NCBI GenBank assembly: GCA_018982785.1
Contig: JAHHEN010000003.1
Span: forward strand, 248,001-312,000
Direction of reading: 5' to 3'
DNA length: 64,000 nt
Origin: Enterococcus innesii
Lineage (GTDB): Bacteria; Bacillota; Bacilli; Lactobacillales; Enterococcaceae
In this document: positions 52,357 to 57,075 of the stretch, one piece after another
How the letters are laid out: the number at the start of each line of letters is the position of its first letter
How positions within the stretch are numbered: position 1 is the stretch's first letter
Notes under the pieces: generated by a model
Database searches by the model: none
What the model was told of the DNA's origin: nothing
Seen by the model: only the letters and a program-made list of their open reading frames with translations
Position numbers and translations under genes: made by a program

Positions 52357-53457
52357 ATGGAAAGAATATTTGCGAGTCCGTCACGATACGTTCAAGGAAA
52401 AGGTGTATTGAAAGATGGTTTATCCCACATTAAAGATCTAGGGAAGAAAGTGCTGCTTTTGACCGATGAAACAGTTTGGAAAATTGCCGGTGAAGACTTA
52501 TTTGATAATCTCAAAGCAGCTGATTTAGATCCGGTAAAAGAAATTTTTGGTGGAGAAGCTTCTGCAAATGAAATCGATCGTATCGTCTCTAAAGCCAAAA
52601 GCGAATCCATTGAAGTGATTGCTGCATTAGGTGGCGGGAAAGCCATCGATACTGGGAAAGCTGTTGCAGATGAATTAAAAATCCCGATTGCCGTTTTGCC
52701 AACGATCGCTTCTACTGATGCACCAACTTCGGCACTTTCTGTTATTTATACAGATGAAGGTCGCTTTGAAAAGTATCGTTTTTATCACAAAAATCCTGAA
52801 CTTGTCTTAGTGGATACAGCCGTTATTGCGAAAGCGCCTGCCAAGTTATTGGCAGCGGGTATTGCGGATGCACTCGCAACCTATGTCGAAGCACGCGCCG
52901 TTGCCCGAAGCCATAGTCAGAATATGGTTGGCGGCATTCAACCAATTGCCGGCATGGCGATCGCTGAAAAATGCGAAGAGATTCTTTTTGAGAATGCGCT
53001 GAAAGCCTATCAAGCAAATAAAAAACAAGTCGTTACCGAAGCGTTTGAACAAATCGTGGAAGCCAACACTCTGTTAAGTGGTTTAGGTTTTGAAAGTGCT
53101 GGTCTGGCAGCAGCTCATGCGATCCATAATGGCTTGACAGCCCTTGAAGGAGACGTCCATGATTTGACTCATGGAGAGAAAGTTGCTTATGGGACACTTA
53201 CACAATTGATGCTGGAAAACGCGGATCCTGATGAAATTGACCAATATATTGAGTTGTATCAGGCGTTGGAATTACCAACGACATTAGCTGAAATGCATCT
53301 TGCGGATGTCGGTGATGCAGACCTTATGAAAGTCGGCAAACAAGCAACCATCGAAGGGGAGACGATTCACAATATGCCGTTCACGGTATCTGCAGAAGAT
53401 GTTGTAGCCGCGATCAAAGCCGTGGATGCCTATGTGACCGCTTATTATCCTCTATGA
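52357..53457 (+). CDS. gldA: Glycerol dehydrogenase (iron-type)
   Basis: 366 residues. The GGGKAIDTGKAVAD loop binds NAD; metal ligands lie in GIADALATY (Asp), AAAHAIHNGL (His) and LTHGEKVAYG (His). It oxidises glycerol to dihydroxyacetone. A normal dihydroxyacetone-kinase partner is not adjacent. The start is ATG 52357 after AAAGGAGG; the longer in-frame extension overlaps the dnaJ terminator and is not used. Confidence 0.9.
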   Translation: MERIFASPSRYVQGKGVLKDGLSHIKDLGKKVLLLTDETVWKIAGEDLFDNLKAADLDPVKEIFGGEASANEIDRIVSKAKSESIEVIAALGGGKAIDTGKAVADELKIPIAVLPTIASTDAPTSALSVIYTDEGRFEKYRFYHKNPELVLVDTAVIAKAPAKLLAAGIADALATYVEARAVARSHSQNMVGGIQPIAGMAIAEKCEEILFENALKAYQANKKQVVTEAFEQIVEANTLLSGLGFESAGLAAAHAIHNGLTALEGDVHDLTHGEKVAYGTLTQLMLENADPDEIDQYIELYQALELPTTLAEMHLADVGDADLMKVGKQATIEGETIHNMPFTVSAEDVVAAIKAVDAYVTAYYPL

Positions 53458-53509
53458 TGTTATTTTATAAACGTTCATTGATCGATACTTGTTGATTAAA
53501 AAAAACGTT

Positions 53510-53538
53510 TGACAATGAAAAAGAGTCGTGCTATTTTG
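53510..53538 (+). promoter_or_regulatory. Promoter of the Cys-leader / mccAB-yrrT-luxS operon
   Basis: TTGACA, exactly 17 nt, TATTTT preceded by an extended TG. It is one of the best promoters in the window, and transcription should start near 53545, before the leader peptide. Confidence 0.75.
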
Positions 53539-53570
53539 TTAACAAGCAAATTAAAGGAGGGAACAAGACA

Positions 53571-53678
53571 TGACGAACTTCAACACGCAAACTACATGTT
53601 GTTGTTGTATGGTGCAAAAAGCAGCATACCCATTTGTCATGCCTATTATTAGTTCCTTTGTCGCAGCAGATCGCTGAG
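53571..53678 (+). CDS. Four-cysteine leader peptide, putative attenuator ORF
   Basis: 35 codons from ATG 53571, after AAGGAGGG, one of the strongest ribosome sites in the window. The peptide reads MTNFNTQTTCCCCMVQKAAY and ends in AADR. The Cys codons TGT-TGT-TGT-TGT are at 53598-53609. It has no resemblance to a folded protein. It lies between a strong promoter and a perfect terminator, ahead of the cysteine-forming operon, exactly as the leader peptides of amino-acid operons do. Ribosome stalling at scarce Cys-tRNA is the inferred signal. Confidence 0.75.
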
Positions 53679-53721
53679 TTTTTTAGTGATTCGCTTCTAT
53701 CCGGATAAGACGACATTTTTG

Positions 53722-53754
53722 GGGTACTGATGTAATAGTCAGTACCCCTTTTTG
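53722..53754 (+). terminator. Attenuator terminator before mccA
   Basis: The perfect 10-bp stem GGGGTACTGA (53722-53731)/TCAGTACCCC (53740-53749) is followed by T5. It begins 43 nt after the leader stop codon. A competing pairing is possible between leader positions 53628-53639 (TACCCATTTGTC) and 53713-53727, which would sequester the terminator's 5' arm. Confidence 0.85.
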
Positions 53755-53860
53755 TTTGCTATTTTTTACCGCTTTCATTGGCGACGGCTGGTGATTGCAA
53801 ACGAAAATGAGTACATGAAGCATACGAGTTGTACCAAAAACTTGAGCGAGGAGTCGAGCG

Positions 53861-55960
<2,100 letters not shown>

Positions 55961-55962
55961 TG

Positions 55963-56607
55963 ATGGGGAGAGAGTTTATTCCAATTTTTTCAGACTGGGC
56001 AGCTGAGTACGATGAAACAGTTGCAGGTAAGGATGAAGAATATCGAGCAGTTTTTTTAAAATATGAACAGTTACTAGCAGAAATTGCTGAAAAGGCAGGG
56101 CGGTCTGTGGTAGAATTTGGTAGTGGAACTGGAAATCTAACACAAGCTCTACTTGATCAAGGAAAAAATGTGCTGGCGATCGAGCCATCGCCAGAGATGC
56201 GGCGGATCGCCAAGTCAAAACCCAGTCTTTCTAAAGTGACTTTTGTTGATGGTGATATGGAGGTTTTTCCTGAGATCACGGATGCGATTGATACGATCGT
56301 TTCTACCTATGTTTTTCATCATCTTACGGAGGACGAGAAACAACGGGTGATCGGCAAATATGCGGCGATGCTGCCAAAAGGCGGGAAAGTGCTTTTCGGT
56401 GATACGATGTTTCTTTCTTTAGCCCGCAAAATGGAACTAATCGACGAAGCGCGTCAAGCTGGTCACCAGCGACTAGCCGCTGATCTGGAACGGGAGTACT
56501 ATCCAGTTACTGCGGATATCGAACGGTACTTTCGCCAACATGGGTTTACCAGTCGTTTTAAGCAAATCAATGAGTATGTTTGGCTTGTGGAAGCACAAAG
56601 AGAGTAG
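55963..56607 (+). CDS. yrrT: YrrT-like SAM-dependent methyltransferase
   Basis: 214 residues starting MGREFIPIFSDWAAEYDETVAG, the YrrT pattern, with SAM motif VVEFGSGTGNLTQAL. In B. subtilis yrrT shares an operon with mtnN and mccAB. The acceptor is unknown; use of SAM produces the S-adenosylhomocysteine that the pathway recycles. It starts 3 nt after mccB with a weak ribosome site, so translation is probably coupled. Confidence 0.85.
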   Translation: MGREFIPIFSDWAAEYDETVAGKDEEYRAVFLKYEQLLAEIAEKAGRSVVEFGSGTGNLTQALLDQGKNVLAIEPSPEMRRIAKSKPSLSKVTFVDGDMEVFPEITDAIDTIVSTYVFHHLTEDEKQRVIGKYAAMLPKGGKVLFGDTMFLSLARKMELIDEARQAGHQRLAADLEREYYPVTADIERYFRQHGFTSRFKQINEYVWLVEAQRE

Positions 56608-56619
56608 GAGAGAAGTACA

Positions 56620-57075
56620 ATGAAAATGAACGTTGAAAGCTTTAATTTGGATCATACGAAAGTCAAAGCACCTTATGTACGGGTTGCCGATAAAAAACAA
56701 GGAACGAATGATACCATTATCAAATATGATGTCCGTTTGAAGCAGCCGAACCAAGCGCATATGGATATGGCAAGTCTGCATTCTTTAGAACATTTGACGG
56801 CAGAATTGATTCGTAATCATGCGGATTATATCGTGGATTGGTCACCAATGGGCTGCCAAACCGGCTTTTATTTGACTGTCTTGAATCATGACGATTATGA
56901 AGAGATTTTGACAGTCCTTGAAAAAACCATGAAGGATGTTTTGCAAGCAACTGAAGTACCTGCCAGCAATGAAGTGCAATGCGGTTGGGCGGCGAACCAT
57001 ACCTTAGAAGGTGCGCAAAAATTAGCGCAAGAATTTCTTGATGAACGTGACAATTGGTCGACCGTTTTTGCCTAA
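56620..57075 (+). CDS. luxS: S-ribosylhomocysteine lyase LuxS
   Basis: 151 residues with the metal site H54-X3-H58 (HSLEH) and C121 (VQCGWAANH), catalytic E57 and C79 (GCQTGFY). It splits S-ribosylhomocysteine into homocysteine and the AI-2 precursor DPD. As the last operon gene it feeds homocysteine to MccA; the nucleosidase MtnN that makes its substrate is not in the window. Confidence 0.95.

Follow-up and report, generated by a model that had tools for sequence, protein, structure and literature searches.

A putative cysteine-codon attenuator ahead of mccA-mccB-yrrT-luxS and related operons in Enterococcus innesii and its relatives

Introduction

The question raised by the locus studied here is what a short open reading frame with consecutive cysteine codons, set between a promoter and an intrinsic terminator, does ahead of an mccA-mccB-yrrT-luxS operon. 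Attenuators of the trp and his type combine a leader peptide in which the regulated amino acid is abundant with mutually exclusive helices and an intrinsic terminator, and the original prediction for this locus was an attenuator that reads cysteine codons.

We have analysed the locus in a window of 64,000 nucleotides from Enterococcus innesii (contig JAHHEN010000003.1; all coordinates below are those of the window), together with its counterparts in related genomes. On the basis of the parts of the leader, their conservation, the pattern of reading frames, the covariation of a short kernel pairing and the complementarity of two segments called S1 and S2, we consider it very likely that the element is a ribosome-mediated transcription attenuator sensing cysteinyl-tRNA, and it probably turns the operons behind it on under cysteine shortage. 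From these features we infer translation, stalling, termination and the cysteine signal; the switch under ribosome masks comes from folding calculations.

Results

All features of the leader region lie on the plus strand. The strong promoter TTGACA-N17-TATTTT proposed originally is confirmed by direct reading at 53509-53537, with the -35 box at 53509-53514, a 17-nt spacer, and a -10 box at 53532-53537 that is preceded by TG and ends 32 nt before the leader ATG. A long plus-strand ORF, called gldA in the original prediction, ends at 53457, just upstream of this promoter. The Shine-Dalgarno (SD) sequence AAAGGAGGG (53553-53561) ends 8 nt before the ATG at 53570, and together with the start codon and the first codons it forms the protector arm S1 (53553-53578), which pairs with S2. 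The leader ORF MTNFNTQTTCCCCMVQKAAYPFVMPIISSFVAADR (53570-53677) has 35 codons, with the stop TGA at 53675-53677, and the presumed sensor is a run of four TGT codons read directly at 53597-53608. Directly 3' of the cysteine codons stands the hairpin P1 (53607-53629), GTATGGTGC-AAAAA-GCAGCATAC, followed by S2, ATTTGTCATGCCTATTATTAGTTCCTT (53632-53658), whose partner is either S1 or the 5' half of the terminator. Within S2, the predicted antiterminator kernel CTATT (53643-53647) has its complement AATAG in the terminator loop (53734-53738). The intrinsic terminator GGGGTACTGATGTAATAGTCAGTACCCC with its T run occupies 53721-53753, the stem-loop being 53721-53748, and is separated by 107 nt from mccA, which begins at 53861. 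The 35 codons, the four TGT codons, the terminator and its distance from mccA thus all stand as originally described, with small corrections of position: the codons and the terminator had each been placed one base further on (53598-53609 and 53722-53754), and the stop had been put at 53678. A pattern scan found no promoter-like plus-strand site between the terminator and mccA.

The leader RNA of the window folds with -70.3 kcal/mol (z = -4.55), and none of 200 shuffled sequences was as good. It can also be noted that the minimum free energy fold shuts the entire leader by pairing AGCAAAU (53545-53551) with GUUUGCU (53754-53760), across the terminator tail.

The operon itself starts with mccA (53861-54825, plus strand like the genes that follow), which encodes a cystathionine beta-synthase/cysteine synthase-like protein. 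In this E. innesii genome it is split into the frames 53861-54433 and 54487-54825; an intact homologue of 321 aa is present in G001, an E. casseliflavus-like genome (locus L036), and the split is either a frameshift or a sequencing error. The mccB-type gene (54815-55960; the family alignment points to ATG 54815 as its start) encodes a PLP enzyme of Cys/Met metabolism that exceeds the cut-off of NF004821 (cystathionine gamma-synthase; 682.7 bits, cut-off 642) and falls just below that of NF005810 (cystathionine gamma-lyase/homocysteine desulfhydrase; 593.6 bits, cut-off 594). The yrrT-like gene (55960-56607) has methyltransferase domains only and owes its name to the gene order, and luxS (56620-57075) encodes S-ribosylhomocysteine lyase (NF002604, 211.8 bits, over the cut-off).

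We now turn to the distribution of the element. It was found in all six genomes of the genus of the window, and a DNA search matched 53 of 105 genomes of the family Enterococcaceae. For the comparison, 55 loci were used, namely the window and 54 fetched loci whose match covers a 50-nt core around the Cys run; loci matching by short promoter or terminator pieces alone were left out. These 55 elements are spread over 47 genomes and seven genera, with putative E. casseliflavus, E. gallinarum, E. avium, E. raffinosus, E. mundtii, E. lactis, E. crotali and E. moraviensis among the carriers. In eight genomes there are two copies, standing ahead of two different operons. A covariance model built from 54 elements (L050 was left out) matched 51 of the 105 genomes at E ≤ 0.05; three matches (G055, G090, G091) proved false on reading, and the 48 true ones are the 47 genomes plus G038. 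Covariance hits in six places (L137, L144, L145, L147, L148, L149) have no Cys run and were set aside as chance, and so were, after checking, the hits of a pattern search in L165, L168 and L172, which belong to three unrelated bins.

Chance is excluded for the element itself mainly because the ATG and an in-frame Cys stretch are kept in the six genomes of the genus and at the 55 loci of the family. An SD-like site with an in-frame ATG is present at 55 of 55 loci; the distance from ATG to Cys takes eight values between 27 and 51 nt, every one of them in frame. The run has four cysteines at 21 loci and three at 32, the exceptions being CCFC (L043) and CC (L083). The terminator hairpin was found by script at 54 loci, and the remaining one (L042) has an imperfect terminator by eye. 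At 53 loci a promoter site agreeing with the consensus in 9 or more of 12 letters stands 45-100 nt 5' of the ATG, a count made without a shuffle control.

The genes behind the element fall into two classes. An mccA-type gene follows in 39 of the 55 cases, and among these 39 there are mccB-like genes in 31, yrrT-like genes in 20 and luxS in 34. The other 16 elements precede an amino-acid ABC transporter operon, always with a substrate-binding protein (SBP), permease and ATPase, and in 15 cases with a Cys/Met PLP enzyme. In the single operon of this class that was scanned (L054), the cystine ABC models were the best transporter matches, under their curated cut-offs, and import of cystine is the probable function of these operons.

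Starting from the proteins alone, we found 49 mccA orthologues above 350 bits, eight of them in genus g17 and 41 outside it. All 41 outside g17 have a match to the model directly upstream, two of these being decayed. For the transporter class, the 15 best SBP orthologues of genus g3 (at least 359 bits) all carry the element; this cut, which leaves out the next homologue in the genus at 356 bits (G017), was chosen after the list had been inspected. G017 has a T-box in place of the element (RF00230, 95.5 bits, L236:2103-2339, minus strand), with an AUG-like specifier by eye, ahead of a PLP enzyme-SBP operon. This is the homologous c0-SBP operon (45% and 67% identity); by its AUG-reading specifier the operon looks methionine-regulated, and it was not counted. 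In the stretches fetched for the weaker SBP homologues (those in G012 and G019, and the second homologue of G017) the element was not found, and no Rfam model reached its gathering score.

It is important to point out that the leader is conserved differently on the two sides of the Cys run. Most of the 55 leaders have the motif CCCMV, preceded by residues that vary. The three codons before M are TGT TGT TGT in 49 of 55 leaders and TGC TGT TGT, a synonymous change, in four related ones (g4); the non-synonymous changes are one Phe (TTT) and one Ala (GCC). In family f9, discussed below, TGC occurs at the other two Cys codons. The conserved stretch TTTGTCATGCCTATTA after the run is read in one frame in 29 elements and in another in 26, since the P1 loop varies by single bases. 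To judge from these sequences, past the Cys run it is the RNA that is conserved and not the peptide. The two-frame conservation amounts to a natural experiment that tells RNA function from peptide function.

Next, the helices are considered. In P1, 99.8% of the cells are paired over 54 sequences, and two pairs are changed on both sides: pair 92/101 is CG in 49, UA in three and GC in one, with one unpaired, and pair 86/107 is AU in 53 and GC in one. The S1:S2 duplex, which includes the SD, has an energy of -18.8 kcal/mol in the window and a mean of -20.5 over the 55 elements, compared with -17.4 for non-cognate combinations. Against shuffled S2 the mean z is -3.06, and 50 of the 55 duplexes beat at least 95 of 100 shuffles. 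Its start-codon part is paired in 91.7%, with a change from AU to GC in two sequences. This SD/start-codon:S2 helix was absent from the model proposed originally.

The alternative partner of S2 gives a different picture. As a whole, the S2:S3 duplex, where S3 denotes the terminator 5' arm and loop, has a mean z of only -0.87 against shuffled S2 (in the window 47 of 100 shuffles are as stable), and the cross-lineage comparison (cognate -12.15, non-cognate -11.82) is uninformative because the kernel is shared. With S2:S3 no better than the shuffles, nor clearly better than the cross-lineage pairs, the antiterminator rests on the kernel. By script, the S2 kernel is complementary to the terminator loop in 69 of 83 elements, with CTATT or CTGTT facing AATAG or GATAG in Enterococcaceae and Vagococcus, and CTAAT facing ATTAG in f9. 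Judged by comparison of the sequences, CTATT/AATAG versus CTAAT/ATTAG is one lineage-level compensatory change present in many copies. The 14 misses comprise six failures of the finder, where the partner is visible by eye (L042, L083, L203, L205, L207, L208), and eight elements that truly have no kernel (L088, L142, L143, L146, L150, L198, L213, L218). Six of the latter keep their Cys codons (L088, L142, L143, L198, L213 and L218; in L143 as two Cys pairs, CCACC).

The antiterminator in the original prediction, 53628-53639 with 53713-53727, does not hold up, as its equivalents reach -6 kcal/mol in 15 of 55 elements, versus 52 of 55 for the pairing of S2 with the terminator loop. Another option considered was the 3' arm of P1 as antiterminator (CAGCA with TGCTG, by eye). 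It fails in the cystine class, where the 5' arm is GGTGCAGC.

The proposed switch was then examined by folding. With the RNA of the window ending at 53740, the free molecule forms S1:S2 and P1, and masking 53571-53622, the mask suggested in the original prediction, changes S1:S2 to S2:S3. For 54 elements (L088, having no kernel, was left out), masking just 32 nt over the Cys codons raises the mean P(kernel) from 0.24 to 0.28. When S1 is blocked in addition, the mean becomes 0.85, with values above 0.5 in 50 of 54, and a ribosome mask at the stop codon gives 0.004, with values above 0.5 in none. Since the Cys mask alone barely shifts the fold, the model needs a stalled or queued ribosome to hold S1 away. 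With the full-length RNA the terminator wins in all three folds made, which means that the switch must be kinetic.

Two copies of the element deserve separate mention. In L146, the second copy of G007, the run reads VCWTMV and there is no kernel, and P1 is kept, by eye with a compensatory change from G-C to C-G. In L150 (G038) the run reads YCCYMV, the loop is changed and the kernel pairing is lost. The loss of the Cys run with retention of the operon, which would speak against a Cys-codon sensor, thus does occur in these two loci, and it does not at 39 of the 41 R1-positive mccA loci. L146 and L150 look like decayed switches in which Cys run and kernel were lost together.

Finally, we searched outside the family. 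In 395 genomes of Lactobacillales there were 41 with a match at E ≤ 0.01, namely 31 in the family and ten outside it, the latter being three false ones (L137, L144, L145), two in Vagococcus (L135, L136) and five in f9. Among 397 f9 genomes, 21 match at E ≤ 0.001, at 24 places, and the leader has Cys codons at all 24. In the cases where genes were read, leaders of the MMNLNNVKQMQACCCVVMQNYYTF type stand ahead of metA-cysK-cystine ABC operons, MINVNQFNLNSCCCGLHLL ahead of an mccA-like gene accompanied by an MFS transporter, and MTNAIFTKSAACCACCANANMLF ahead of a protein of the sodium:dicarboxylate symporter family. By eye, the hairpins at the P1 position differ in sequence (GTAGTAAT/ATTACTATAC and GTGGATTGCA/TTGCAACCCAC). 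The f9 genus g57 (L206, L209, L211, L212, L231) has the variant leader CCCVVMMQNTLLYYF, which in L231 stands ahead of an ABC permease-permease-ATPase-SBP-like operon, identified by eye, and not of metA-cysK. In 398 genomes of the class, four match at E ≤ 0.001, that of the window among them; in G762, from another order, the leader is followed by a complete mccA-mccB-yrrT-luxS operon.

All seven readable regions upstream of mccA in genus g17 (L219-L222, L224-L226) contain a Cys leader unrelated to the element, MSYAKFNAFSYSCCQTSRCGDVWLALREL or a variant of it, together with a hairpin and, by eye, a terminator. The pattern is SYSCCQ(T/M)SR(C/F)GD, the third Cys being Phe in two. The eighth mccA of this genus (G104) starts 88 nt from the end of its contig, and those 88 nt contain no such terminator. 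These g17 leaders gave no Rfam match at E ≤ 0.01, and they are apparently a second, independent invention.

Discussion

The results strongly support the idea of a Cys-codon attenuator as originally put forward, with 55 of 55 elements before a Cys/Met-type operon and 53 of 55 with a run of three or four cysteines, all in frame; the specific antiterminator is the part that had to be replaced. In the mechanism we propose, the SD and start codon of the leader transcript (S1) can pair with S2, the alternative partner of S2 is S3, and the terminator would form from S3 and S4. When cysteine is plentiful, the ribosome would pass the Cys codons and reach the stop in or just past S2, thereby covering S2. 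After its release S1:S2 could reform, so that the terminator forms and mccA-luxS is off. When Cys-tRNA is short, the ribosome would stall on the Cys run and melt P1, and either this ribosome or another one queueing behind it, at the start codon 27-51 nt further 5', would keep S1 off S2. The freed S2 could then pair with the emerging S3 through the kernel CTATT:AATAG, and RNA polymerase would read through. The start and the Cys run are about one ribosome length (27-51 nt) apart, so that with queueing the second ribosome would sit on the SD/AUG.

A different signal would act through the same RNA if the nascent CCCMV chain were an arrest peptide, or if the leader were a general sensor of slow ribosomes, for example under an antibiotic, with cysteine supply irrelevant. 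The conservation of CCCMV in most of the 55 leaders would suit this explanation, and a ribosome stalled at about this position would free S2 just as well. However, MV overlaps P1, and f9, with its different hairpin, has VV, VM, GL or GS in its place. L143 has CCACC without MV, the residues before the run vary, and the g17 leaders read SCCQ(T/M)SR(C/F)G. The genes behind the 55 family loci are, moreover, Cys/Met-type enzymes and transporters. We therefore regard this explanation as unlikely. That the ORF instead makes a functional Cys-rich peptide, as a unit separate from the operon, would account for its having its own promoter, SD and terminator, but it is hard to reconcile with a C-terminal half read in two frames (29 versus 26), a variable N-terminal half and a conserved RNA, and a separate operon would have to do without a promoter-like plus-strand site between the terminator and mccA. 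This we consider the least credible of the alternatives.

The remaining possibility is that the terminator merely ends the upstream gene (gldA) and that the operon is governed by a CymR-type or LysR-type repressor at another promoter. A long same-strand ORF does end at 53457, and according to the accessible part of PMC2940859 the regulators of cysteine genes in other Firmicutes are CymR, CysR or CmbR. Against it, that ORF is separated from the leader by a good promoter, there is covariation between the terminator loop and S2, eight genomes have the element before two operons, so that it does not belong to the end of a single upstream gene, and the pattern scan shows no second promoter-like site before mccA. 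Such an arrangement seems very improbable, though a repressor might act in addition to the attenuator.

Returning to the attenuator, we compared it with known systems. In Rfam searches, the only hits in 10 kb of the window were three weak ones, none on the leader; the T-box (RF00230, at E ≤ 1) and SAM (S-box) models did not match the window leader. For 12 related loci there was no T-box or S-box at E ≤ 0.01, the only match being ceN30 in L136, off the leader. In the open-access literature, a body that mostly excludes subscription papers, we found no description of the element and none of a Cys leader serving these operons.

Among the closest known systems are mycobacterial leader ORFs of the poly-Cys kind that respond to cysteine (Canestrari et al. 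2020, Mol Microbiol 114:93, as cited in PMC9094748). As far as that citation goes, they likewise consist of a short upstream ORF with consecutive Cys codons and tune an operon to cysteine supply. They are leaderless according to the title of that paper and belong to Actinobacteria, whereas the enterococcal element is SD-led, has a terminator and alternative helices, and occurs in Lactobacillales ahead of mccA-luxS and probable cystine-import operons; the window leader, with its SD and a -10 box 32 nt from the ATG, does not have a leaderless start. In the Rhodobacterales, uORFC-8-2 is predicted to act as a ribosome-mediated attenuator; it combines tandem Cys codons with an intrinsic terminator and occurs only upstream of cysS in the accessible text of PMC8632094. 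According to that text the first stem of this alpha-proteobacterial element contains its two Cys codons, which are mostly UGC; the enterococcal one has three or four, mostly UGU, before the hairpin, and differs in genes and structure. No cysS was found among the downstream genes identified for the enterococcal element and its relatives. Clostridia have a Cys-specific T-box before ubiG-mccBA-luxS operons (PMC2940859, accessible part), which is alike in operon type, in the presumed signal of uncharged tRNA-Cys and in premature termination as the output. The T-box RNA, as described there, binds the tRNA directly, in contrast to the translated leader found here, which suggests that a translated leader has replaced the clostridial T-box on the same type of operon.

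Amino-acid attenuators in the form of His leaders are described for bacilli in the part of PMC2965389 available, and a Leu-rich attenuator peptide in Staphylococcus aureus is named in the title of a cited paper. The enterococcal element differs from the trp/his type in that the leader's own SD and start codon, and not the codon run, serve as the protector arm, that the kernel pairs with the terminator loop, and that one family serves several operons in one lineage. The sequence comparisons thus point most likely to a known kind of attenuator whose architecture and lineage are new. If this is true, enterococci and several relatives have a control dedicated to cysteine that is neither T-box nor S-box, with formation of cysteine from homocysteine, release of the AI-2 precursor (luxS) and probable cystine import among the controlled functions. 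The family is compact and conserved enough to merit an Rfam entry.

One more observation concerns the cystine operons of g3, where a second SD-led mini-ORF, beginning M-C-C-(C/R/H) and 9-17 codons long, stands after the terminator and ahead of the first gene. It was detected in 13 of the 16 cystine-class loci (L045, L046, L054-L058, L069-L071, L076, L077, L079); a Cys-Cys mini-ORF was seen at none of the 39 mccA-class loci. A combined reading, in which a ribosome queued behind the stalled one on the SD/AUG frees S2 and this mini-ORF adds a translational Cys check, giving two serial sensors, is conceivable but doubtful. As placed by the ORF caller, the mini-ORF starts 19-93 nt, mostly 55-60 nt, before the first gene.
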